This document shows positions 14,091 to 56,185 of a DNA stretch of 64,000 nucleotides, one piece after another. Below the pieces are notes generated by a model that worked only from the letters and a program-made list of their open reading frames with translations, searched no databases and had not been told where the DNA came from. The translations under genes were made by a program, and so were the position numbers. The stretch's first letter is position 1; each line of letters opens with the position of its first letter. The DNA comes from Polytrichum commune (Eukaryota > Streptophyta > Polytrichopsida > Polytrichales > Polytrichaceae): assembly GCA_950295325.1 (NCBI GenBank), contig OX485803.1, positions 3,782,001-3,846,000 of the forward strand, read 5' to 3'.

Positions 14091-14102
14091 TCCAGGATGA
14101 CA
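14091..14102. repeat. Target-site duplication of the giant LINE (3' side)
   Basis: TCCAGGATGACA occurs here and again at 29381-29392, exactly at the two edges of the strongly G/T-rich (plus strand) block. A 12-bp identity at these two places fits target-primed retrotransposition. Confidence 0.75.
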
Positions 14103-14269
14103 AAGAAAAAAGAAAAAAGAAAATAAAAAATAACGCCAGTATTATATACCGGCATGAATGCGAGCCCGTTAACCCTGTATTAATCACGGTGTCCCGTGAT
14201 GTAATATAGGGCGTTATGCCTCCTTTGGGAGGTGGGCTCTTGTTTCCATATTATATTAGTTAGTTTTAG
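14103..14269 (-). other. Structured 3' UTR of the LINE
   Basis: On the coding strand an outer 8-bp stem ATAACGCC/GGCGTTAT (plus-strand 14130-14137 and 14210-14217) encloses a perfect hairpin ATCACGG-GACA-CCGTGAT (14183-14200) and a smaller CCGGTAT/ATACTGG pairing. Non-LTR reverse transcriptases often recognise a 3' RNA fold to prime on their own transcript; that role here is inference. Confidence 0.6.
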
Positions 14270-14956
14270 TTAGGGTGGGGGGACCGGGGTTTGTTTGTTA
14301 TCAAGTTTTCTTTTGTTTAGAACTAGGTATGTGAGGTATTTAATGGCGTTTTCGTGTATTTTCTTCATGAGGGATTTAATGTTGTGCTTTGGGATTTTAA
14401 GTTTGGTTAGTTTTTCTATGGAATGTTCGTGTATAGCTCCTCTTACTCCGGCTGTGATGGTAATTAGGGGGTTGACTTTCCAGCCGATGTTTTGTATGTT
14501 GTTGATTAGTGGATCGTATTTGGTGTGTTTGTGGGTGAGGGCTCCGTCCGGGAATCTGTCATGGCAGTATGTGAACTCAATAAATTGGATTGTGTGGTTG
14601 GGAGAGGGTAGGATGGGGGTGGGTGATTGGTTTTGGGCTCCTATAATGCACAATATGTCGGGTTTTAGCTGGGCTGGGCATTGGCATTTCGTTTGTGAGC
14701 ATGTGCATGCTAAGAGCCAGTCTGGTACTGTGTGATCTTGTGGTTGATTGTTGTGGTTACCCGCATTGACCAATGTAAAAAACCTTGTGTTGTTGTTGGC
14801 TTGGAGTGTTTGGGTGATCAGGTGGACTGCCTTGTTGTGTCTTGCAATTCTTAGTCCTTTTAAGTACGGGTGTTCGCATGTGGATAGTAGGTGGGGCCAT
14901 GTGTCTCTGTCATTTCTTTGGCATAGTGTGCAGTTAGGGTTCTGGAATTGGAGGGG
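14270..14956 (-). pseudogene. ORF2 C-terminal CCHC knuckle and restriction-like endonuclease domain
   Basis: Directly after the TAG at 14957 the frame encodes CTLC..H..C (CX2CX9HX4C, 14876-14932), then RHNKAV and a VNAG stretch. Counting from codon 14773, a cysteine cluster (C23, C25, C30, C32) precedes KPDI (37-40), QFIEFT with E66, and HKHTKYDPL with K82 and K85, then GWKVNPLITITAGVRGA. The series PD, then D/E followed by T, then K..KY.PL and G..V, with the CCHC knuckle just before it, is the layout of the restriction-like endonuclease of R2/R4/Hero/Dualen-type retrotransposons. It would nick target DNA. The loop between PD and E is longer than usual. Confidence 0.72.
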
Positions 14957-15730
14957 CTAGAATATATGTTTTCTATGGTTGCTCATATATTGTGCATATC
15001 TAAATTTTAGAGTTTGGGCAATTTGTGTGTCGGGGACCTGTTTGCTTTTCCAAAAGTGGTTGGAAAGTTTTTGGTTGATTTGTTTGTTTGATATCCATTT
15101 GTCGACGTAAGGGTATTTTTGGATGGCTAATGCGCATTCACGGTTTTCGTGCTCTTTAGTTATAAATGTGCGAAGGTTTCGGATTGCTCCGTCGTGTGTG
15201 CCAGTTGGGCAACTTGCTAACCAATATGGGGTTGTGCGGGCTATGTGTATCCGTGGTGTGGTGTCGGGTTTGTCTTTAAGTGTTCCCATATTTGCTAGTG
15301 TATCTGCCATTTCATTGCCACTAATGCCTGTGTGCGCTCGTACCTTATGTATGTGGACCATGTGTTGGGTCCAATATATTTGGTTGATAATGGCTGCGAT
15401 AAGAAGTTTGTCCGGGTGGTGGTGTTGGGATGTTGGGTGTTGTATATGGTTATTAATTAAGTATATGCTATTGAGGCTGTCTGTAAATATATGGGTGTCT
15501 CTTTGGGTGATTTGTATGGTTTTGATGGCTATGAGAATTGCATTTAGTTCGGCTCTTAAGATGTTTTGGTATCCGGGTAATCTTTCGGATATTTGGGTGT
15601 TGTTGTTGGAGCTATATACTCCCGAGCCTGCGGTATTGCCCACTATTTGTCCCTCGGAGTTTTTGGATGGTGGGATGAATGATCCATTTGTGTATATGCA
15701 CGCTTGCGGGTCGTATTTAAGGGGGTGGAT
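14957..15730 (-). pseudogene. ORF2 RNase H domain
   Basis: In the 499-codon block starting at 16456, residues about 250-392 form a type-I RNase H. IYTNGS (254-259) holds the first active-site position, RAELNAI gives E303, IFTDSLNS gives D326, and VRAHTGISGNEMAD gives H375 and D385. The first catalytic Asp is replaced by Asn257 (codon AAT at 15686-15688; the usual motif is YTDGS), which should abolish metal binding. The change is one G-to-A step from GAT. The domain would remove RNA from the RNA-DNA hybrid. It lies after the RT and before the CCHC knuckle. The block ends in a premature TAG. Confidence 0.85.
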
Positions 15731-15946
15731 GTGGTGATATGTGAGGGGTAGGGGTGTGGTGGTGGTGTTGGGGGAGGGGGGGATTATTACGTGGGGGGTG
15801 TTTTGCCATTTGTTGGAGAATTTAACGTTATAGTGTGCATGGGTGGGTTGTATGTGGTGTGTTTCTATATGTGTGGTGGTTAATCTTTTTAGTATGTTTT
15901 GTAATTCTTGTGCGGACTTTGGGTTTGGTGTTATTGTTGTTTGGTT

Positions 15947-16351
15947 ATGTATGCAGATGATGGACGTAAGTGATGGTTCAATGTATTGATAATATTTGGG
16001 CCATTCTGGTGTGGGGTTATATTGGATGCTATGTGGTGGGATGGTTACTATTGTGTGTATGTATGGGTGGTTGTTGAGTGGTATTTTTTGTGGTGTCCAA
16101 TCGGTGTGATTGATTATTAGTATGGTAATGGAGTTTGTGTCTTCTTTGGCTGCCATTCTAGCCCAATGTATGGCCTCGACGGTTGTGTTATGGTCAGTGG
16201 GGAATGCTAGGCCTATGCCATTCCATTTAGAGGAGTGGGCATGTCCTAGTGAGCCAAATATTATGTCTCGGGTGTGTGGTGAGTTGTATTGTGTGAGTTG
16301 GGTAGGACATGTGAGTGGGGATGAGTAGTAGGAGTGTGTAATGTTAAATGT
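15947..16351 (-). pseudogene. ORF2 PCIF1-like methyltransferase-like segment
   Basis: Residues about 36-170 of the block starting at 16456 contain YSSPLTC (44-50), then a D followed by IIFGSLG (64-71), W and G, AFPT (84-87), IHWARMAA, and a hydrophobic strand ITILIINHTDW. This spacing recalls the PCIF1-like N6-adenine methyltransferase family (FSSPLNC, D..FGS.G, NPPF, then a strand ending in P.W). The catalytic NPPF is AFPT here, so if the relation is right the domain is non-catalytic or decayed. The resemblance is from memory and weak; a retroelement-specific linker domain is the alternative. Confidence 0.4.
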
Positions 16352-17308
16352 TTCTATGAGGAGTTTAGTTATATCCGGGTGTAGTGTATGGTGTTGGTTT
16401 TGGGGTAGGATGGTTTTTGGCTTTTTCTTAGGTAGTATGGATATGTATCTTTGCATGAGCCATATTATCTCAATCTCAAAGTCTTGTGGGGGCGGTTGTA
16501 GGAAGTTGGTTATGTGCGGTTGGTTGTTATGGTTAAATTGGTTCCATAGCCAATGTAATCGTTCCGTGGTGATTGTGGCTATGTATTTACCATTTTGGTC
16601 ATATATGTTGGATTCAAGGTTGTGTATTTGTATGGTGGGTTTATTACTAAGGATGTCTTTGTCCGGGTTGCATTCTTGTATGTTGGTGTGTAGATTGGTG
16701 ATATTGAGGGGGGGGGGGGGCGTATGTATTTTTTGTCTTTTGTTTGTGTGTGAGTGGTGTGGGTGGCGTATTTTTGAATGGCTAGTTGTTCCGTTGTTTT
16801 GTTATGAAATTGTGTGATGCGTAGTAAGTTATGGTCTAGTAGGATGTTGTCGGGGTGTAGGAGGTCCGTCTCCTTTCGCCATTGTAGTGTGGGTCCTTGT
16901 GGGTTTTGCCATTGACATAGGTATTGTTTTGTGATGGCTTGTGCTCCCCATTTGTCTTTTCTTGTGGAGGTTTTGTCTTTGATTATGGCGTGGATTGCCC
17001 GTCCGAGGGTGTGTTGGGGGAGGGGGGGGGGGGGGTGTTATGTTTGTGGGTGTTTGTTGTGGTAGGTGGGTGTGGTTTAAGTGTTGTGTGGATGTTGGTG
17101 TCGGTGGGAATATTGTGGAAGCGTGTTGGAGTGCCTCTTTGATGGTTTTGGTGATGTGGTTATAGGTGGCCCGAAATTCTTCGGGGGTTAGAATGGCCGT
17201 GTTTTCTTTGTTTTGAATTTGCATTATTGTTGTTATTCCGTGTGTGTAGAGTTTGTCGAGGTATTTATGTGATTTTATTTTGGAGGTGTCGGCGAGGTTG
17301 GTGTATGT
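16352..17308 (-). pseudogene. ORF2 linker region with two compensating homopolymer frameshifts
   Basis: From 17308 the frame reads protein-like sequence to a poly-proline codon run at about 17023-17036. Beyond it the protein-like reading (for example LGRAIHAIIKDK, then QWQNPQGP and LQWRKETDLL) is in a different frame until a second C run at about 16707-16719. After that the original frame resumes with NLHTNIQ and ERLHWLWNQF and runs into the methyltransferase-like segment. Slippage in two poly-C tracts, biological or from sequencing, explains this. I recognise no catalytic motif in the linker. Confidence 0.7.
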
Positions 17309-19537
17309 TTATTGGGATATCCACATTTGTTCTAGTGGGGTTTTTATGAGGGGGAATGCGCGATTTGTTGTGGTGACGTGGATCTCATATTCTCTTTTCA
17401 AGAGGAAGAGAGTTCTTGCTATGGGGGATCTAATGCATGCTTGTTGTTTTAGTTTGGGGAGGTGCAATGATCCTCCGTATTTGGCTACTATATATTTAGT
17501 TAGACCTTGGTAGATGAGGCCTAGTTGTCCGGGGTCGTTTAAGGCTTGGATGAGTTGTTGACCGATGCAATGTATGTAGTCCGGTAGGAGGGAGGTTACG
17601 TCTATGCCGAAGTTTTCGTGTGGGAGGTGTGTTAGTATGTTGGCCGTGCTTTTAGGTATTTTACATATTTCTTTGGTTAGTCTTCCTATGACTTTGTCTA
17701 GCTTTATTATGTCGGGTTTGGAGAAGGGGACTGCGTAGTATGCATAGGCTATGCGAGGTTTTATGACCGTGTTAAGGATGTTGATTTTTTGTTTAAGACT
17801 AGCTGGGGAGAGGGTTAGCAATTTGCATTGTTGTTTGGCCCTTTGGAGTGTAGTTTCTTTTTGAATGTTCCATTTTAGAGATGGTATTAGTTGGATACCT
17901 AGGTATGCGTATGGTTCATTTTGTGTGAGGGTGGGAAAGGTTTTTGTTTTGTAGGTAATATTTTGGGATTGTATGTAGGCTTTGAATGTGTTGGGTTTAA
18001 GTTTCGATTGGTTGGGGCACCCAGTAATGGCGCATTTGGAGAGGTTTAGGTCCATGTGGGACCATTCGGCAAATTTTTGTAACTTGAGTATTTGTGGTTG
18101 TATGTGATTTATGTTGTCGGATATGATTGCGAGGTCATCCGCGTAGGCTGTAGTGGTGCACGTGGAGGTGGATGTACTGAAGTGGTATCCCATGTCATCT
18201 TTTTCTAGCCATCTTAGTAGTGGTTCCAGGAAAATGATGAAGAGGTAAGGGCTAAGTGTATCCCCTTGGATGGTGCCTCGACTAATTGTTACTGAGGGTG
18301 TGGTACCAAATTGATTGCCTGTGAATGAGGTTGTTGAGTGTGTGTATATGTTTCCGACTAATTCAGCTGCGTCTGAGGGATAACCCATGTCTTCCATTAG
18401 GGCTAGTAATCTTGCGTGGTCAATGTACCCAAAAGCGTTTCGAAAGTCAATGTAGGTGAGGTAAATATCTTTGTTGGTGAGTTTGGCGTCTTCCAGGGCT
18501 GCAATTATCATTTGTAATTGTCTTGAGGTGTTTCGTTGTGGCCGGAAGCCCTCTTGACTGAAGTGTATTATTTTATGTTTTTCCCCGTATCTTGTGAGTA
18601 GGGCCGTTAGGGTACTAGTATATAGTTTATATATGATATTAGCTAGTGCTATCGGTCGATAATTGGCGAGGTGAATAGGGTCGTCTTTCTTGTGGAGTAG
18701 GATGGTTTTGCTATGTTTCCATTGGGTTGGGATTTCCCTCTGTTTGTAACAATGTTGGAAAAATAGAAAAATTAAGTTTTGGCATTTTGGTGGTAGTGCT
18801 TTAAAGATATCATTGGGTATGTTATCGGGGCCGGGAGCTTTACCTTTTGTTAATCTCTTGACGTAAGAGTCGTATATTGCTCGGGAAAATTGGGTGCTTA
18901 TGGATGTAGTATGGTGGCCTCTTTTGTCAAGTATTATTCCATTGTGTGTGTGCCAAGGGTATTTGCGGATTGCGCATTGACATGTGTTTGGGTGGTCTAT
19001 AGGGTCGTTACATAGTGGTGCTTGTCTTTGGAAGGATGCTTGTTGTGTGTAGTATATTTCATTTGCTATATCTTGGGGTTTGGTTAGGATGTCTCCTTGG
19101 GCATTTTGTATGCAGTCTAGGGAACTTTCGATGATTGGGTAGAATATATTTTTGTGTATTGTTTTGGGTTTGATGTTGAGCAGTGCTCGGTATTTTGTGA
19201 TGGCATTTTTGCAGTTGGTTGTGGTTTGCTTGACTATGATTTTGTGTGCTTCGATTTTTGCTTTTCGTCCTATGTTGGCTATTTCTTCTATCCATAGTGC
19301 TTGCTCTGGGGGGTTCATAGGGAGTGGGGGGACAGTTAGATTGTTAATTAGTGTTAGGGATTGTGTGTCGGGGTGGTTTTGGAGGTTGGTATGTGGAAGT
19401 TGGCATGCGGCCCGAATGGCCTTGCGAGTTCCGTGGTATATTTTGAGATGATGTTTCCATAATTTTTGTTGTTTTCTACGTATGAATCCTCTTTGGATTT
19501 TGGCTCTAGTGGTAAGTGGCGGTGTGGGTGTTGTCAT
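17309..19537 (-). pseudogene. ORF2 reverse transcriptase domain
   Basis: Counting from the ATG at 19537, the non-LTR RT motifs appear in order: KGKAPGPDNIP (231-241), ILLHKKDDP and NYRPIALAN (279-300), GFRPQRNTS (330-338), YIDFRNAFGYIDH with the first catalytic Asp at 364 (362-374), GTIQGDTLSPYLF (421-433), and YADDLAIIS (465-473, 18119-18145). SKC follows further on. All catalytic aspartates are present. The upstream in-frame region (to 19624) and the downstream region are open except for TAA at 19625-19627 and at 17309-17311. The RT copies the element RNA at the nicked target. This part of the copy is the best preserved. Confidence 0.92.
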
Positions 19538-19627
19538 GCAAGTTTTTTCTATGCATTGACTTAGGGAGTTTATGATGTTTTGGAAGTCATTTTGGGCGTC
19601 TTGCCATTGTGTTTGTATGAGTCTTTA

Positions 19628-20530
19628 TTGTTGTAGAGTTTTAGTGAGGTTTGTTATCTCTAGGTTTTGTTCTTCTAAGAATGTGGTTTGGAGGTTTGTG
19701 GGAGGTATGGGATATATGATGCGGGGGTTGGTGGGGGTCGTTTTGGTCTCTTTAAGAACTATGCTATTAGTGGGTAGTTGGAGTTGTACCGGGTAGTGAT
19801 CGGAATTTTGGTTGAGGTTTGTTATTGTGTAACTTTGTAATGTGTTTTTGTTTGAGTAAAAACCGTCTATGTGGCTAGTTGATGTGTAGTTGTGACCTCC
19901 TTGTCTTGTGAATTTTTCTAGGTTGTTTATCGGGTGAAGTCCCAGGGTACTTGTAAAGTGGGCCCATTCGTAGTCATCTTGGTTAGGAGGGGAGTTTATA
20001 CCGTTGGAGGATCTTCTTTTGAGTAATATGTCCCGGTTGAAGTCTCCCGCTAGGATGATGTAGTGATTTTGGTAATTGTGGGTGATTCTTAGGAATTCAT
20101 TTTGTATGTCTTGTATGAGGTGTACGTCGTAAGGGTGTGATGGCATATACATATTAATGAGGAGTATTGGTGTGATAGGTTTGTTGTTGATAATGATGGC
20201 TTGTAAGTAGTGTGATATTGGGCTAGGGGTGGGTATTTTGGTGATGTTTTCATTTGTATATATGGTTTTAGGTATCATTGCGAGTATGCCTCCTCGTGTC
20301 ATAGTGGGTCCGGCGAACCGATTTTGGTTGGTGGTTAGGTTGTTAGAGTTGTTATATATGATTTTATAATTTTGTAGTTTTCTGTCTATGTATGTTGTGG
20401 ATTTTAGTTTTTGTAGTTTAGTTTCTTGTATGAGTATGATGTGGGGGGTTGTGGGTAGGGTTTGTGTAAGTTCTTGGATGCCTGGTAGACTAGAGCTTAT
20501 ACATCCTGTGTTCCATGTGATTATTTTCAA
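19628..20530 (-). pseudogene. ORF2 APE-type endonuclease domain
   Basis: Residues from 20530: IITWNTG (N7), ILIQETK (E36), RGGILAMIP, LINMYMPS, LAGDFNRDI (D163), SHIDGFY (D222) and SDHYPVQLQL (D244, H245). These are the full set of apurinic-endonuclease-like catalytic residues found in LINEs, so the fold is intact. The block opens at TTG, not ATG, and is in frame with the 2A segment upstream and the RT downstream, from which it is separated only by TAA codons and one TGA. It would nick target DNA to prime reverse transcription. Confidence 0.9.
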
Positions 20531-20626
20531 GGTCGTTGTTTGGTGGTTGTATGTGTTCGTGGTTGCGGGCGGCGCGGGGTTGGTGTTTGTGTCTTGTGTG
20601 TGTGGGTAGTATCATTTTATTGTTTA

Positions 20627-21328
20627 GGTACACTTAGTGAGTTCTTCAAGGATTTTCCGGGGTATGTGAGGTAGTTCCATTTTCAAGTCTTGTAGGTTTG
20701 TTGGTTTACCTTTAGCAATGTTGTCATTAATACGGGAGTATGCTTGTGTTATTGTGGGTATTTGTGTGTTTGGGGTCGGGATGGTGATGTGGCGTGCGTT
20801 TAAGTTTGTGTTAGTCGGTGTGTTGTGTAGTCTTTGGAGAATTGTTAGGCATCTTGGGTCTAGGTCATTGGTCATTAGTTGGTTGCAGATGTCTGGGTTG
20901 GGACTATAGACTATTATGAATGTGTATAGTTGGTGATGGGTTGGGTATTCTGAGAGGGATGAACTATGTCGGCGTAGGTGGGGTAGGTCTTGGTTATGTG
21001 GGTGGGTATGAGTTTGAATAATGTAAGGGTCGAATAGTCCCTCAAGGTGGGCATATTGGTTTTTGAGTGTGATTGTGTTATGTATGAAGTATTGTTTTTG
21101 TCTTTGGGTGAATTCTATGGGGAGGTTGTACAAAATGGGTGGGGAGGGGCCCGGGTTGGTTTCAATGTCTCCACTAAGGGTTATGAGTGTGGTATTATTC
21201 CATATGTAATATTTTATGACTTTAGCTTTAGGGGTTTTTAGATGTGTGTGTGTGAGGTAGAGGATGTTGCTTATGTGTAAGGTAGGTTGGATGGGTGGGA
21301 TGGGGGGTGGTGGGTTTGTTTGGGGCAT
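20627..21328 (-). CDS. ORF2 N-terminal segment with 2A ribosome-skipping motif
   Basis: The open segment starts at ATG 21328 and runs 234 codons to TAA at 20624. Residues 1-60 are a proline-rich then hydrophobic leader. Residues 52-61 are SGDIETNPGP, which matches the D-I/V-E-x-N-P-G-P consensus of 2A peptides; skipping would separate G60 from P61. About 170 residues follow with no recognised fold. 2A motifs at the N-terminus of ORF2 are known in APE-type LINEs of trypanosomes and animals. The segment continues in frame into the endonuclease across TAA and TGA, so it is probably the N-terminus of one polyprotein rather than a separate gene. Confidence 0.8.
21146..21172 (-). other. 2A peptide coding site
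   Basis: The codons encode GDIETNPGP with every consensus residue present. The upstream residues TTLITLS are hydrophobic, as expected for the helix of a working 2A. The expected effect is release of a 60-residue leader and restart of translation at proline. Confidence 0.85.
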
Positions 21329-21350
21329 GTGGTGGGTGGTGTGTTGTGTG

Positions 21351-21794
21351 TTATGTGTTATGTAAGTTGTTGTGGAGTGGGGAGGTGATTGAGGATTTTT
21401 GGTTAAGTTGGTATAGGAGGTGTGATTGTTGTGTGTGATGTTGTTGTTGGTTTTGATATGGTCGGGTTAGTTTAATTTGGTGTGTTAGTGGGGGGTTGTC
21501 ATAGGCTATGATTGTGGTGAGGGTGATAGTAAGAAGGATGATTATGGTTATGGTGTGGTGAGTGTTGTGTGTTGGGGGGGGATTAGGTGTGTGTTCGTAT
21601 TTGTGTTGGGGGTGGTTGTTTGTTGTCTTTGTTATTTTTGAGATGTGATTGTTGTAATTTCGTTTTGGGACACATGTATTTTGTAGAGAAGATGAGTTGT
21701 ATGGGAGAGTGGCATTTTTATTTATGAGTAAATAGAGGCTACATAGGTTGTGTATGATATGCGTCCATGCATATGCTAGTGCCTTGCTATTCAT
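21351..21794 (-). CDS. Possible small ORF between ORF1 and ORF2, one membrane segment
   Basis: The 147-codon frame starts at an ATG that overlaps the ORF1 stop in ATGAATAG (start at 21794, TAG at 21787-21789). This arrangement would allow termination-reinitiation. The product is rich in T, H, N and Q, with one strongly hydrophobic stretch (about residues 81-97, ITIIILLTITLTTIIAY). No family is recognised. The A/C-rich strand gives long open frames by chance, so it may not be a gene. It ends 22 bp before the ORF2 ATG. Confidence 0.3.
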   Translation of the reverse strand: MNSKALAYAWTHIIHNLCSLYLLINKNATLPYNSSSLQNTCVPKRNYNNHISKITKTTNNHPQHKYEHTPNPPPTHNTHHTITIIILLTITLTTIIAYDNPPLTHQIKLTRPYQNQQQHHTQQSHLLYQLNQKSSITSPLHNNLHNT

Positions 21795-23016
21795 GAAGAT
21801 GTTGGTGGTCTTTGTGGAGGCTTGGTGAGGGGCTCCGGTAGTACGCGCCTGAGAATCCCGGTGGTACTAGGTGTGTGTTGGGCTCTCCCACATGAGCGTT
21901 AACCATGGATGAGCTTGGTGCGTGGGGGGGCTCCGGTGTGGTGGCGGCGAGCGTTTGCATGATGTTGTGTATGCGATTGTTGGATTGTTGAAATTCCATC
22001 GCCATGGCACTCATGATGTTGTGGATGTTTGTGGCGTGGGTCTTGAGCGTGTCCGTGGAGGCTTCGATTCTCTTGTCCGTGTTGAGGTTGATATTGTTGG
22101 TGAGCGATGTGAGTTTGTCGTCAACCGTTTCGACCAACTCCTTAATGGTTTTGGTGAAGAATTTCTCCGATACAAGGGGCGAGGAGGCGGCGGTGTTGTT
22201 CATGGCTTGAATTTTTTGTGCAATGACTTCACGGACGGGGGTGTGTGCTTGTCGTATGGCCATTTGGTTAGGCTCGGTCCCGTCGATGCTCCTTTTGTGG
22301 GGGATGAAGTCCACGCGCCTCCCTAGGATGTAGGTGGACTTGCGTAGCCACTCCGTGTAGACCGCCGCATTGAGACATTGAATGTGGCACCACCCGGCTT
22401 GGCGGTCGTCTTCTTGATTAGATTTGTGCCCGTAGGTGATGTCGGTAATGTTCTCCTCTCTAAAGAGCCGCTTCAATGCCTTGGTGATGGTGGATTGTGA
22501 CTCACGTTGGGGTAAATTGTTAGCTACAAGAGTGGTGCTAATTCTAAGCTCCGATAGATTGCCTATATCCTTGTCCTTAGTGATGCTCACCTTTAGTTTT
22601 TCGGAGTGGTAGGTTAGGCCATTGGTGATGATGTCCTCCCGAGCCTCTTCGGTAGTGAGGGTGAGGAAGGCGAAGTCTTTCTCCACATCCGCTTTAGTGA
22701 GCGATAAAATTTCTACCTCACGGCCTTCGTAGTAGGATTCGCTCATGAGGGTGCGGAGGATATCTATGGCCGTGCTTCCTCGGAGGGTTGCACCTTTGAG
22801 GTGGAGCCGCATGTTCTTGGCCTTTGTGATGAGTTCGAAGCCCTTCTCCACCTTGCCAATGACTCGTTCACCGTCTCCCATTGTCATGACGAAGGCGCGT
22901 TCTCCTCGGAGAAGAGCTAGTCCGTCTAGCTTTGGGTTTTGTAGGTGGAGTTTGATGAACCCCGCCCAATTCCGAGTGACCGTATTTATGCCTATATCAA
23001 TTGGGTTAGAGTATGT
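21787..23016 (-). pseudogene. LINE ORF1, 3' part: RRM-like modules and helical tail
   Basis: The frame is open from 23016 to the TAG at 21787, with an internal ATG at 22887. Upstream of that ATG it reads WAGFIKLHLQ and RGERAFV, so the ATG is not the true start. Counting from 22887, residues 25-105 form an RRM-like module (MRLHLKG, VEILSLTK, DFAFLTL, LKVSI) and residues 115-195 a second (TLVANNLP, WCHIQC, RRVDFI). Residues about 210-315 look helical, possibly coiled coil. RRMs in ORF1 proteins bind element RNA. The segment was cut from its 5' part by the solo LTR at 23022-24787; removing the LTR and one GTTAC copy rejoins the frame. Confidence 0.8.
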
Positions 23017-23021
23017 GTTAC
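23017..23021. repeat. 5-bp target duplication, solo LTR 2 (left)
   Basis: GTTAC here and at 24788-24792 flanks the LTR exactly. Confidence 0.85.
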
Positions 23022-24787
23022 TGTGAGGCCAAATCCACCACCCTTAAGCGTCCTAGTCCGGGTGATGGCTTTGCGAGTCACATGTATCTCTTACAACTTG
23101 AACCATGTGCAAAGTAATTTTTATGTCCAAAAGAACACATATTGTTTCCACTCATTGTACTTTATTAATGTTAGCCTCTTGGCTTGTGGTAGAGTTGGCT
23201 TTCTCAAGCGTCCAACCCGTGGCTTTAGCCACACATGCCCTTAAGGACATTCCCCTCGCTCGTTTAATCTTCACTTCCTTTTTGTTGCCATTGCAAGAAT
23301 CTTCCACATTCTCCATTAATAATGCAAGTGAGTTATTTTGACCAAGAGGTGCAAGTGTTGAAAAACACTTTTCTCAATGGTTAAACACACTCATACAAAC
23401 CCACACGTGGCACCAACTAGCCTAAATGAATATAACTTCTTAGCTACCACTAAAGATGGCCTAATGTGATCTAGTTTTTTATGTGCTAATACTTACTACT
23501 TGAGCTAGCCTTGCTAACCCCTAGATAGTCTAAATGAATTGTTGCTAGGCAACCCAGCTGCCTTCTGATTCCAGTCCCGGGTGTGGTCTAACCTCCAAGC
23601 CCAACTGCCTTTGATTCCAGTCCCGGGTGGTCTAACCTCCAAGCCCAGCTGCCTTCTGATTACGGTCGCGGTGTGGCCTAACTTACCAAGCCCAGCTGCC
23701 TTCTGATTACAGTCGCGGTGTGGCCTAACTTACCAAGCCCAGCTGCCTTCTGATTACAGTCGCGGTGTGGCCTAACTTACCAAGCCCAGCTGCCTTCTGA
23801 TTACAGTCGCGGTGTGGCCTAACTTACCGAGCCCAACTGCCTTCTGATTACAGTCGCGGTGTGGCCTAACTTACCGAGCCCAGCTGCCTTCTGTTCCAGT
23901 CCCGGGTGGTCTAACTTACCAAGCCCAGCTGCCTTTGATTCCAGTCGCGGTGTGGCCTAACTTACCGAGCCCAGCTGCCTTCTGTTCCAGTCCCGGGTGG
24001 TCTAACCTCCAAGCCTAGTTGCCTTCTGATTTCAGTATATGAAGTTATAATACCCGAATGGGTATCCCAACCACTAGTTGCACCCTAATCCAAACTCTCT
24101 CCTTCCCTAATCACATGTTTTCTAAGTTTTTCTTCTTCTTTCTTTTTCCTTGCTCCTAAATAATAAACTAATCTAACACACTAATTCCACTAACTACTAA
24201 CTAATCAACACGTGCAACTTTAAACTCTAAGAGCTCCCTCAATTGGGTGGCATTGAGAGAGAGAGCTTAACTAATTAACTTCACTAAGAACTAATGTCTC
24301 ACACACGTGGCTCAAGCTCTTTAAGAGCTTGCTCTCTTGAGAGCGCTTGATGGAGAGAGAGGAAAATGAGAGAGAAACCACCTTAAGTAGCAAAGAGGGA
24401 GAGAGGGAGAGAGGGAGAGAGAGGTGAGGATAGGGTGAGAGGATTAGCACCTCCAATCACAATCCCTTAACCTTCACCTTCAAAGTAGGGACTAATCCCC
24501 TTCCACCAAGCTTCCTTCTTCCTAAACTACCAAGGTGGATCCAAAAGTGGGCATTTAACCCGCGGAGCTCACCTTGCTTCACCTTACCCCCTACTCACAA
24601 TATCAAGGCATACTCTTATTGAATTCAACCTTGAAATAATCACACAACACATTCTAAAGCCTAAACTTAAATCCAAACCACACTTCACTCTTTTTATGTT
24701 TTGTGAATAATCATAACACATCAAAGTCAAACTAAAATTGGTTTCGAAGAGTTAATCACCACATGTGGGCACCATTTTGGGCTCACA
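23022..24787 (-). mobile_element. Solo LTR 2, inserted in LINE ORF1
   Basis: This 1,766-bp insertion has minus-strand ends TGTGAGCCCAAAATGG and GATTTGGCCTCACA (inverted TGTGAG/CTCACA) and an exact 5-bp duplication GTTAC. Both ends match the solo LTR at 3509-5149. It contains a minisatellite (23549-24034), a GA-rich tract (about 24350-24425), and a short minus-strand frame of about 53 codons near 23310-23150 of no known type. It interrupts ORF1 and is younger than the LINE. Confidence 0.88.
23549..24034. repeat. 43-47 bp minisatellite, about 11 units
   Basis: Head-to-tail units begin AAGCCCAGCTGCCTTCTGAT and end GTGTGGCCTAACTTACC. Units vary between a 'ttccagtcccgggtgg' form and a 'ttacagtcgcggtgtgg' form. 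The central four or five units are almost identical, which suggests recent expansion. Each unit carries a CAGCTG core. It lies wholly inside the solo LTR. Confidence 0.9.
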
Positions 24788-26757
24788 GTTACCTAGGAGT
24801 ATGTTCATGAGGCGTAGCCTCTCCAAGCATGCGGTTTTGACTTCCCTTCGGTTGAGCGATTTGAAGTTCCTGTCAAATCTTATAGTAACATGGAATCCTT
24901 CGGTGAGGCCCGTGTCTTGAGAGGTTCTCTCGTACTTTGGAATTTGCGTAAAATGAAGATGTTGTCCGGGTACCGCATCCGGGCGTTCAGATGGGTAAAG
25001 GACTTGCTTGGTTCGCGGGAAGGCACGCCGAATTGTTTTGAATTCGTGAATTTCGGAGGCGGGTGTACCAATGGCTTGGAATTCCTCATTCGTTCGCTTC
25101 TCCGATAGCTCTTTCTTGCCTCGTTGTATTGAGAGGGCTTCGTGCATGTGGAATCCTAGCCACATTTGTCCGATCATGTCAATGCCTAGTGTGGCTCCTC
25201 GTTTTGATCTTGTGCTCGATGTTGGTGGTGTGGCCTTACTTGGGAGTGGAGGTGTAGATGTCGCCGTATAGTCGTCGGCCTTTCTCCTTTTGGTGTTTTG
25301 GCTCTCCGAGGCATCGACAATCCGTGGGTTACGGTATTGTAGTGTTGGTGGTGTGCTATCGGCAATGCGGATAGACCTTTGTGGTGTTTCGTGTGTGGCT
25401 TGGATGGAGTGTCTCTCCGATGAAATTTGTAGAGAGCTCCCTCCTCTCTCCGGTGACACGTCCTCGAGTTGGGCGTCCATGTCCAAATCCTCCGCGGCGT
25501 CTATGTCATGTGAATGGGGCGGCTGAGAGGACTTGAGTTGTGGGGGCGGCTGGGCTTGGATTTGATGTCGGAAGGTCATGTAGTGGCCTTCCATCTCATC
25601 CGACGGCTGCATGCTGTGAAATGAAGCGGTATCGTGGGAGCCGGCCTTCAAAGCCTGAGCGATTCCCTGCAATTCGCAGTTAATTGTTTCGGTGAATTGG
25701 CGGGTCCAGGGGCTTCGGTGTTGGAATTTCGTGTGCTGTGCAGTTCGGGGTCTGTGCTGGGGGTGTGTGTTTGCTGGTTGTTGCTGAATTGTCTTGGGGT
25801 GGGTCGGGGGGGGGGGGCTTCTGTGCTCGTTGGTGTTGGTTTTTCCTTGCTGTGTGCTGCTGTTGAGTCTGTATGGGATCCACCAGTGAGTATGTATGCA
25901 AGAATTTGTGGGCCTGTTGTGGGATGAGGGTGTAGGAATGAGTTTGGGACTTACCTTGTTTTTGCGGCTGGGGCTGTTGGCTGCGATGGCAGCGAGTGTT
26001 GGGTAATGTTGCTTGCGATGGTGTGCTGCAGTGTGGTGTCTGATTCGGCAATTGCTGGTGCGGCTAACCAGGGTGTTTGTATGCGCAGTGTGGTGGCGGT
26101 GGGTGAGCGTCTGGCTGGGCAGTTCTTGGGTGGGCGCTCCCGGTTGGTGTGGTGGATGACGGCTGCGATTGGTTGGTGGGCAATTCGGTGGAGGGTTGGT
26201 GGTGGTGAGAGTGATCAGCTGGCAGCTTGGAGGAGGGCTTGTGCTGGTGCGGATGTGAACAGTCGGCTGGTATTTTGGAGGCGGGTTTGTGCTGATGTGG
26301 GTGCGAGCGGTCGGCTGGTGGTTCGGAGGAGGACTTGTGCTGGTGCAGTGGTCGGTGCGGGGCTGCTCCAATCGCTGTAGTGCGTCTGATGTTGGAGCGT
26401 GAAATGTGAGATGGTCTTGTGCTAGAAGTTGAGAGCTGGTGGTGTGGGGTGAGAGTGCTGGAATCGTCTCTGTGGTGGAGTGCTGAGGGGAGTAGATAGA
26501 GAGTGTGGTGAGAGATGGGAGTATGGAGTGGCAGTCAGGTGCTGCTATGGTGGTGTGACTTGGAAGGTGGTGGGGGGAGGAGGGGGCTGCGAGTGGGAGT
26601 ATAAGGAAAGTGTCCTGCTGTGTGCTAAGTGTGTGTAGTGAGGAGATGGTGTTTTGGGAGGTGTGATTGAGTGTCTTAAGTAGGGCGTTGTGGGTGTAAT
26701 TTTGGTTGTGTGGGTGTGTGCATGCAGCGACTTCTGTCAGTTGTCCTCGGTGTATCC
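24788..26757 (-). pseudogene. LINE ORF1, middle part: disordered region and start of first RNA-binding module
   Basis: The frame is open on the minus strand from the edge of solo LTR 3 (26757) to the edge of solo LTR 2 (24788). Most of it is low-complexity, rich in P, T, S, H and Q. A conserved-looking C-terminal part from about 25100 includes GFHVTIRFDRNFKSLNRREV (about 24840-24901). The frame enters in phase from the 5' part at 27720 and leaves in phase to the 3' part at 23016. Open reading continues into both LTRs by chance: codons from 26911 to 26763 and after 24787 are LTR sequence, not ORF1. Confidence 0.75.
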
Positions 26758-26762
26758 ATGTG

Positions 26763-27719
26763 TGTCGCGCACCTCTCCATGAGGAGTGCCCAAACCACCA
26801 TGGGCACAAGGGGGACCCCGGAGTGACACCCGGGACTTGTGGCGCCATTGGTGAGAGGGCCCAAGTGATCCTAGTGTGGATGAGGGCCCGGGCGTTGGGA
26901 ACGCCTCCCACCCACGGAGACTAGGAGGCACAAGGGTAAGGCCATGAGCTATGCGTAGCTCATGGCGTGATGTTTCTAGAATGCTCAAGAACACCTCAAT
27001 CGGAGTTATGGCCATTTGAGTGGGGCGCTGTCCCGGGACAGCGCCCTGGTACAGCAGTGCCTGGGAGGGATTCCCGGGACTGCCAAGGTTCAAACAGGCA
27101 TAACTTCCTCAAGACTTGCTTGAATGGAGCAAGTGAGGAGTCCATCGGCATCTACGTGAAGCGTAGATGAGGATGGAGTGGTTGGTTGTTATGATCAGAC
27201 ATCATACAAGGAAGTTATGATGGTCTGAAGCTGCTGGGGGGTTCTAGGCCCAGCAGCTAAAGGAAAATGTCCACTTGGCCCCAACTCTTGGTAGAGAGAC
27301 AAGAGGTTGGTTGACGGTGGGGTAGGGGCCCCGCGTGAAGTCCTAGAGGCTTATATGGGTGAGGTGGTGTGGCCTCACCCACCCGAGGCCGAACGGCAAG
27401 GCCTCCATGGGCTTTGGCCTATTGTGAGGCCATAGTTGCCTAGTATGCTTCGGGTTGTTGTAGTGTTGCTCCGGCAACGCGATGATCAACATAGGATTGG
27501 ACTTCCATGGATGGAAGTCCACATTGGGGAAATGGGTTACCGATTAAGGGGTGAGTCCCGAAAGCAAAGTAGGAGGGTTGGTTCCCTCCTATGAACTATT
27601 GGTCCGGGGTAAGAGGAGCTATCCATTAGCATGGCGGAATGCGAAGGGTTAGCGCTCGTAACCTTTGATAGAAACGAAAATTGGCAAGATTGTTAAGGGA
27701 CCTAGCAAGGGTTGCGACA
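26763..27719. mobile_element. Solo LTR 3, inserted in LINE ORF1
   Basis: This 957-bp insertion starts TGTCGCGCACC and ends GGTTGCGACA (inverted TGTCGC/GCGACA). It is flanked by an exact 5-bp duplication ATGTG (26758-26762 and 27720-27724). Its base composition is balanced and GC-rich, unlike the A/C-skewed LINE around it. A TATA-like gcttatatggg lies near 27350 on the plus strand. Its family differs from the other two solo LTRs. Deleting it with one ATGTG restores the ORF1 frame. Confidence 0.87.
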
Positions 27720-29289
27720 ATGTGGGCGGTTGGGTTTTTTGGGGGTGTTTTGGGAGGAGTGTGTGCTTAGTATGGGTGTGTGTGAGCTGGGGGGTTGGTT
27801 TTTGGGTAGGTTCAGGTTGGCTTTTGATGGTTGGGTGTGATCGGGTGTTTTTGTGGGAGGGTAGCCAAGTGGGGATCGGCGTTCCTTGTTTTGCTTTTGG
27901 CGTTCTCATCTTGGCTGGTGTGGGGTGTCTGTATGTTTTCTTGGTGTGTCTTGTTATTTTTGTGTTGTGGTTGTCAGTGTAGGGTGCAGGTGTCTGTTGG
28001 AGTTTCGAGGGTGTGTGGGTGTGGTGAAGGTTAGGTGAAATTGTGAGTGGCCTGTGGTGTTGTTTGGGAGGGGCTTTAGTCGCCGTGTTGGGGTTCGCCG
28101 CAGGCTTCTGGCATTCATTTCGATCCAGCGCGTGGAGCAAGTAAGGTGTTGGGGGTGATTTGTGTGTTTGTGTGCGTTTGTGTCGGGGGTTTGGTTGTGT
28201 TGGTGGGTGATGTGTGTCTGTGGAGGGTTGGGGGAATTGTATGGGGGCGTATCTGTGGTCGGGTGCACCGTATGTAATTGCTGTGTGAGAGGGGATTTTT
28301 TGTGAGGTGTTTGTTATGTGGAGCTTGCTCTGGACGGGTGGAGGCGTGTTTACCTCGACGGGAGGCTTGGGAGCGGCCTTTGGTGTGGCTATGGCGCCGG
28401 TTGTGTGGAGGTATGTATGCAGGTATGGGTGCTGGGTGGTTGAAAGTTGCTGGGTTATCATTTCGCTTTGTGTGTATCTTGGTTTTGCGGCATTGTGTGG
28501 AGTTCAGCGTTTGTGTGGAGTTCGGCGTTTGCGTGGAGTTCGGCGTTCGTGTGGGTGTGTATTATCTGTCTGTATGGTATTTGTGTGGGTGTAATGCAAT
28601 GCGGCGTTGGTGGGAGAACAGAAGTCTGCTGAGTTAGGGTTTAGAGGTGTATGGTACCTCGTATTATGCTGGGGGGCGACAACTAACGTGGTGCCGGTTG
28701 AGGTGTGATGATCGGTGTTGGCTGGGCCTGTGATGGAGCGTTGGGATCTGGGTGTCGCCGTGGTGCTGGAGCGGGGGTTGCGTCGGTTGCGGTGGCTTCG
28801 AGTCCTCCTGTGGCGGCTTTCTTCTGTCATGCGGTGTTGTGGGCGGTCCTCGTGGTGTCGCCATCGGGAGTTGTGGGCGTTCGCTTGGAGCTTCCTCGGG
28901 TGTGCAGAAAGTAGATCTAGATCTGAGGGGAGTGAGGGTGAGCTAGTTAGGTTATGTCGGAGGTGATGGGTGGGTTTATTGGGTGGACAGACTTGTACAT
29001 TTGTTGTGTTGAGGATGCCGAAGCCAAGTGTGTATAACACTACTGTGATTAAGAATGGAAGCCGGCAATTTTGAGTATTCCGCTGTCTGTGTCTCCTTCT
29101 GTTGTGTGTGCTTGGTGTTGCGTTGGCTGCACTTGATGTTCGGCTACTCCCGATCTTAGGTGTGTTTGGAGATCTGCTTCTCCCGCTTCCTGCCTTTGAT
29201 TTCTTGATGTGTGCGCCTGAGAGGTGAGCGATGTAGTGAGTTGCTGTCGGCGTTGTGGTTCCGGTCCGAGGTTGCCTGGTTGCGGCCAT
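27720..29289 (-). pseudogene. LINE ORF1, 5' part: disordered S/T/P/H/R-rich region
   Basis: The frame runs from ATG 29289-29287 to the solo LTR 3 edge. It has one stop, TGA at 28504-28506. That TGA sits in a set of 18-bp repeats (about 28500-28555) whose other units have CGA at the same place, so it is a clear CGA-to-TGA change. The start is uncertain: the frame is open upstream to a TAG at 29338-29340, which itself follows an in-frame ATG at 29347-29349, and a C-to-T origin of that TAG is possible. No folded domain is seen. Confidence 0.65.
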
Positions 29290-29380
29290 CGCCACGATCC
29301 TCTCCTCCTTGTCCGCATATGTTTCATCATAGGTTTGCTAATGCAACATGAGTAGTTTTGTTGTGTAGACTTAACTGATC

Positions 29381-29392
29381 TCCAGGATGACA
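29381..29392. repeat. Target-site duplication of the giant LINE (5' side)
   Basis: TCCAGGATGACA is identical to 14091-14102. It sits about 90 bp upstream of the first secure ORF1 ATG, leaving a short 5' UTR. Confidence 0.75.
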
Positions 29393-56113: not shown

Positions 56114-56185
56114 GTCATTATAGTATAGTGGTAAGTATTCTTGTCTGTCACACGGGTGACCCGGGTTTGATCCCCGGCAGCGGCA
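56114..56185 (+). tRNA. tRNA-Asp (GTC), probably degenerate
   Basis: The 72-nt sequence matches the plant tRNA-Asp pattern. The D-arm A-box-like tagtatagtggtaag, the anticodon loop CTGTCAC with anticodon GTC, a T-arm CCGGG-TTTGATC-CCCGG with a perfect stem, and the discriminator position are all present. The anticodon stem pairs with two wobble pairs. The acceptor stem has A4-C69 and A7-C66 mismatches plus wobbles, so it is likely a decayed copy or pseudogene. A 36-bp block (gaagggcat.ga.gacttcaat) is found on both sides at 56038 and 56376. Confidence 0.8.

Follow-up and report, generated by a model that had tools for sequence, protein, structure and literature searches.

Can a single long interspersed nuclear element (LINE) in a plant genome carry two kinds of endonuclease? 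This question is raised by an element of Polytrichum commune, which lies in a stretch of 64,000 nucleotides of contig OX485803.1 (assembly GCA_950295325.1, positions 3,782,001 to 3,846,000 of the forward strand), hereafter the window. A sequence-only reading had proposed that this LINE has both an apurinic/apyrimidinic-type endonuclease (APE) and a restriction-like endonuclease (RLE), and our analysis bears this out, through a Pfam match for the APE and through invariant motif residues and an R2-like predicted fold for the RLE. We conclude that the element very likely belongs to a multi-copy, recently active LINE family of the Dualen/RandI type with two endonucleases, of which it is a decayed and interrupted copy. 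A family of this type, with several additional parts, is real and was probably active recently. The catalytic part of its second open reading frame (ORF2) has the domain order APE-RT-(PCIF1-like)-RNase H-CCHC-RLE, where RT is the reverse transcriptase. In the window, these features are as follows.

14103..29380, minus strand: whole element including nested inserts (12-bp identical target-site duplication on both flanks; homology to 10 further genomic copies)
19787..20524, minus strand: APE-type endonuclease (Pfam PF03372, Exo_endo_phos, 1.5e-7; PF14529, 2e-7; ratio of nonsynonymous to synonymous substitution, dN/dS, 0.10-0.17)
17309..19537, minus strand: reverse transcriptase, with YADD at 18134-18145 (Pfam PF00078, RVT_1, 4.1e-32; top PDB match R2, 5.4e-34)
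15923..16408, minus strand: PCIF1-like domain without catalytic motif, between RT and RNase H (Pfam PF12237, PCIF1_WW)
15284..15703, minus strand: RNase H (Pfam RNase_H, 4e-16)
14876..14932, minus strand: CCHC zinc knuckle, CX2CX9HX4C (invariant in 9/9 sequences)
14270..14875, minus strand: restriction-like endonuclease, PD / E / K..KY (residues invariant in 9/9 aligned sequences; fold match to R2)

The APE motifs are found on the minus strand at 20510-20524 (IITWN), 20417-20428 (QETK), 20036-20047 (GDFN), and 19787-19804 (SDHYPV), and a search of PDB sequences with this domain gave no match at E ≤ 0.1. The RLE residues lie on the same strand, with PD in KPDILCI (14645-14665), E in QFIEFTYC (14564-14587), and K in KHTKY (14516-14530). 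Of 21 proteins that carry an RLE, 19 retain PD/E/K: 18 of 20 environmental proteins and the window's own. Identification of this C-terminal block as an RLE, also part of the sequence-only reading, found no significant match in sequence-profile searches, but the predicted fold is closest to the RLE of R2. When the RLE profile was compared to the PDB, the top rows were unrelated transpeptidases (0.06-0.1), and R2Bm scored 1.2 over the knuckle. When the entire C-terminus served as query, RNase H swamped the structural search, so the RLE was folded alone, and its best structural match was the R2 RLE. The APE, RT, PCIF1-like, RNase H, and CCHC-RLE regions are all under purifying selection, with dN/dS of 0.06-0.11 for the knuckle plus RLE. 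Between the knuckle and PD, at 14678-14707, four cysteines (CxC...CxC) are conserved in 9/9 RLE sequences and might form an extra metal site.

The window copy is bounded by target-site duplications and is interrupted.

29381..29392: 5' copy of the target-site duplication, TGTCATCCTGGA on the element strand (12-bp sequence shared by both flanks)
14091..14102: 3' copy of the target-site duplication (same 12-bp sequence)
23022..24789: nested insert of ~1.77 kb interrupting ORF1 (absent from C2_44, C3_522, C4_290, and C4_101, which align on either side)
26763..27719: 957-bp repeat, putative nested insert (related repeat outside the element at C7_27, 92%, and near C4_290, 95%)

Spelled on the plus strand, the duplication is TCCAGGATGACA, which occurs only twice in the window, at 14091 and 29381, directly outside the element; the ends proposed at 14103 and 29380 are therefore exact. 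The 957-bp repeat is presumably a nested insert because the same repeat is found outside the element at C7_27, no copy being aligned across the site; by its size, it could be a solo long terminal repeat or similar. A 47-bp minisatellite (23566-24006) lies inside the ~1.77-kb insert. Once both inserts, one of them putative, are subtracted, the element measures ~12.55 kb, in agreement with the ~12.5 kb estimated from the sequence alone, and six further long copies measure 11.6 to 13.8 kb from one duplication to the other. The same reading had placed all the motifs in one minus-strand ORF2. They are indeed all present on that strand, but ORF2 is not one open frame here: seven stop codons interrupt the frame 21328-14270 ahead of its end, and the ORF2 start, at 21794, does not share this frame. 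On its sequence, the window copy is a decayed, interrupted, and dead full-length copy. In other copies, long stretches of ORF2 are open. Codon 14957-14959, at a Trp position between RNase H and CCHC, is TAG in the window and C1_447 and TGG in 9/11 copies, and on this ground programmed readthrough at the TAG preceding the RLE was rejected.

We then consider the family in the host assembly (408 Mb in 64 contigs, nearly all of it in seven contigs of 42-78 Mb). With the RT as query, at least 61 matches were found at 60 places (60 of 2905 candidates were scored), with open frames of 2123-2422 codons at six places. Ten copies with flanks were compared with the window, 11 in total; C1_447 has one stop ahead of the knuckle, and in C5_334 and C7_27 the frame is broken close to the 2A region. 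Because C5_334 and C1_447 are near-identical, with synonymous divergence (dS) of 0 to 0.012 in 9 of 10 segments and 0.091 in the N-terminal segment, and because, of the 39 other 3' ends that were scored, 11 match that of the window at 98-99% identity, the family has probably been active recently. Contig C1, the one contig whose ends were read, bears TTTAGGG arrays at both of them; these arrays and the seven large contigs fit a plant genome. Among the environmental proteins, P0091 (StopGo, APE, and RT start) and P0134 (RT end, PCIF1-like, RNase H, and RLE) are each listed with one 13,377-base contig, presumably one and the same. If they do share it, the entire architecture exists outside the host genome. 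A search of viral contigs yielded no relative.

Target-site duplications of 9-14 bp were found in 16 of 33 copies examined. They were present in 8 of 11 copies in the first set (C1_447 lies within a tandem repeat, C4_290 has none, and C2_360 has only a 10-mer, left uncounted), in 2 of 6 in the second (the other four have no 5' end inside the stretch), in none of 4 in the third (one 9-base candidate was not counted), and in 6 of 12 in the fourth (one has no 5' end inside the stretch). Because the 16 duplications all differ in sequence, insertion is dispersed, and an R2-like single target was not found. An AG target motif, picked after looking, lay within 6 bases upstream of 10/10 first duplications (control windows averaged 2.1/10) but of only 1/6 held-out ones, read by eye, and was rejected. 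Across the 16 sites, +1 is T in 15 and -1 is a purine in all 16 (G in 12), a preference partly produced by the method since the tail is mostly T and C.

The 5' half of the element adds further parts.

24790..25558, minus strand: conserved part of ORF1 upstream of the insert (within open frame 24752-26911)
21787..23021, minus strand: 3' portion of ORF1, following the insert (frame 21787-22887 open; 133 homologs among proteins at E ≤ 0.001)
21787..21794, minus strand: ATGAATAG, in which the start of ORF2 and the stop of ORF1 overlap (ATGRATAG comparison across copies)
21146..21172, minus strand: GDIETNPGP, a 2A/StopGo motif (G[DN][VI]xxNPGP pattern)

ORF1, described in the sequence-only reading as unusually long, is so: from stop to stop, its frame spans 1302 and 1305 codons in two copies. 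Its downstream part has no Pfam match and no significant PDB match. ATGRATAG stands behind an open ORF1 frame in 8/11 copies, and the ORF2 start is followed by a fairly hydrophobic stretch, with a 19-residue mean of up to 1.42 in C1_447, the sole copy computed. The G[DN][VI]xxNPGP pattern occurs 16 times on the sense strand, in 10 of the 11 copies, and never on the antisense strand; six copies have two motifs. The window's GDIETNPGP fits the 2A core (D/G/C/N)(V/I)ExNPGP, and across the 16 motifs this E position is occupied five times by E, six times by Q, four times by H, and once by K. StopGo sequences with H at this position are reported to be >95% active and those with an E-to-Q change 26-56% (PMC12846837). 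NPGP was found in 3 of 280 proteins examined, in P0014 and P0091 in the same setting and in P0032 by chance within the RT. In the open-access literature, we found no description of StopGo in Dualen. A 2026 survey of viral StopGo sequences saw no sign that plant viruses use them naturally (PMC12846837), against which StopGo use in a plant-type genome would be notable.

Between RT and RNase H, PF12237 matches all seven chosen members (best 9.7e-11); the window alone scores 1.7e-5 and 24.9 bits, under the curated cut-off of 31.1. PCIF1_WW is precomputed in 17 of 40 proteins. Searched against the PDB, the domain profile matched only PCIF1 structures at E ≤ 1 (0.038 and 0.35), and a wider profile matched PCIF1 at E 0.0022. 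The catalytic motif of PCIF1 is NPPF. The methyltransferase motif [DNS]PP[FYW] is absent from all 20 proteins with the block, including the window's own, and the domain is, by these comparisons, best read as the remains of an enzyme that methylates RNA caps. In the open-access literature, we found no LINE described as having a PCIF1-like domain.

At the opposite end, the element finishes with a fold and a tail.

14133..14239, minus strand: structured 3' untranslated region (UTR), a branched stem plus terminal hairpin (folding against shuffles; covariation)
14103..14132, minus strand: T-rich 3' tail, not poly-A

The window's 3' UTR folds far better than shuffles (z -6.45). In 10 copies (C1_447 was omitted as near-identical to C5_334), both partners have changed in 12 of 37 pairs, and pairing holds in 97.3% of cells. 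None of 500 shuffles and no slid version attained these values, the alignment being the one from which the structure was drawn; for the number of further pair types, 13/500 shuffles did. The usual tail is T-rich, and that of copy L034 is (ATT)n. For comparison, (ATT)n and (CTATTT)n are listed for green-algal RandI, and 224 of 233 flowering-plant L1 families have a poly-A tail (PMC3747384). This fold, the 2A motifs, the PCIF1-like domain, and the ORF overlap had been overlooked in the sequence-only reading. Elsewhere in the window, a tRNA gene (36.4 bits) is found on the plus strand at 56114-56185.

Together, these parts suggest how the element might work. A single mRNA would be made and ORF1, open over ~1300 codons, translated first. 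The ribosome would halt at the TAG and restart at the overlapping ATG of ATGRATAG to produce ORF2, and one or two StopGo motifs would split the polyprotein during translation, separating the catalytic part from an N-terminal leader that is fairly hydrophobic. The enzyme would recognize the folded 3' UTR, and one endonuclease would nick the bottom strand at a loosely preferred R|T (element strand). Most sites have R|T at the first nick, where cleavage would yield a primer ending in A that could pair with the U-rich RNA tail, and the RT would then copy the RNA. The other endonuclease would most likely cut the second strand 9-14 bp away, giving rise to the target-site duplications.

Where does this family belong? 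For an RT tree, 51 environmental relatives were chosen, of which 43 were long enough and 8 were dropped; with the window, three R2, and one human L1, the tree held 48 sequences. R2 and L1 are separated, with 100% support, from a single group that holds the window and the environmental sequences. The sequence-only reading had named a firm grouping with plant L1 as refuting; this tree, whose references were R2 and human L1 and none of them plant L1 or Dualen, does not refute it. Against solved structures, the RT scores 5.4e-34 with the best R2, 2.5e-22 with R2Bm, and 2.9e-20 with L1.

Several points weigh against assignment to a dual-endonuclease LINE of the Dualen/RandI type. A trimmed RT query scores R2Bm (1e-20) and L1 (6.9e-20) alike, only two other R2 proteins being clearly higher, and the window RT is as identical to L1 (24.3%) as to R2Bm (23.8%), with 25.4% and 25.9% for the other two R2. 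The Dualen/RandI name comes from architecture and tail, the tree having no such reference, and the RLE, as noted, lacks a significant sequence-profile match. Intact copies were looked for as well: there are long open frames at six places, but none of the ten copies compared, nor the window's, is open from the ORF2 start through the RLE end. C4_101 lacks ~50 RT residues, and most dS values approach or exceed 1. In 11 of the 16 StopGo motifs, E is replaced by Q, H, or K, some of the motifs lie in broken stretches, and the pattern scan of 11 copies found none in C5_484. Reinitiation at ORF2 is proposed from sequence only.

Among the alternatives, the one that fares best, albeit unlikely, is that the RLE is a structural remnant, the APE alone cutting and CCHC-RLE being kept for DNA binding. 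Dispersed insertions, loose target preference, and 9-14 bp duplications would suit it, being unlike site-specific RLE elements; the invariance of PD, E, and K in 9/9 aligned sequences, their retention in 19/21 proteins, and the dN/dS of 0.06-0.11 speak against it. Less likely still is a dual-endonuclease LINE of independent origin, either an APE-type LINE that regained an RLE or an R2-like one that gained an APE. The StopGo motifs, PCIF1-like domain, and very long ORF1 are parts not known from Dualen, which was compared by description only, but the domain set and kind of 3' repeat tail are the same as in RandI (PMC3747384), and the RT lies outside R2 and L1, just as Dualen forms a group of its own (PMC4640811). 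An ordinary plant L1 with APE only and an unrelated conserved C-terminal region is very improbable: APE, RT, and RNase H, which plant L1 also has, are all present, a significant sequence match to the C-terminal block is lacking, and the RT is as identical to L1 as to R2Bm, yet the tails are T-rich and the expected poly-A was not found.

The Dualen/RandI-type reading can be extended, tentatively and on balance doubtfully, to a lineage of dual-endonuclease LINEs that occurs beyond green algae and has lately been active in a plant. In it, each endonuclease would cut one strand, tandem StopGo peptides would split the ORF2 polyprotein, and a PCIF1-type domain, acquired by capture and no longer catalytic, would read the cap at the 5' end of the element's RNA, favoring full-length RNA in cis. 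Dualen has served to argue that APE-type LINEs arose when an APE took the place of the RLE (PMC4640811). A family with both endonucleases under selection and with near-identical copies would allow testing which of them cuts which strand.

Comparison with known systems clarifies what is shared. Dualen, which has an APE plus an RLE (PMC4640811 and PMC3636483) and RNase H (PMC4640811), was listed, as Dualen/RandI, for green algae in 2015 (PMC4438587), and LINE/Dualen is also reported in cryptophytes (PMC12747079). The present family resembles Dualen/RandI in combining, within a single element, an APE upstream of RT with RNase H and a C-terminal RLE (PMC4640811 and PMC3636483), and in its non-A 3' repeat tails (PMC3747384). 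It differs, by description, in StopGo, the PCIF1-like domain, and an ORF1 of ~1300 codons, which excerpts of these sources do not mention for Dualen/RandI. With the PCIF1/CAPAM cap adenosine methyltransferase, it shares PF12237 and an SPLxC...FGSxG block, but the LINE domain has no NPPF-type catalytic motif (0/20 proteins). With APE-type LINEs bearing 2A/StopGo motifs, it shares a 2A-like motif upstream of the APE but doubles it in 6/11 copies; such LINEs, reported by Odon et al. in 2013, are not known to carry an RLE. Finally, it is like R2, an RLE-type LINE, in its CCHC-RLE fold and its best-scoring solved RT, but R2, which inserts into rDNA, lacks both APE and RNase H, and the insertions of the present family are dispersed.

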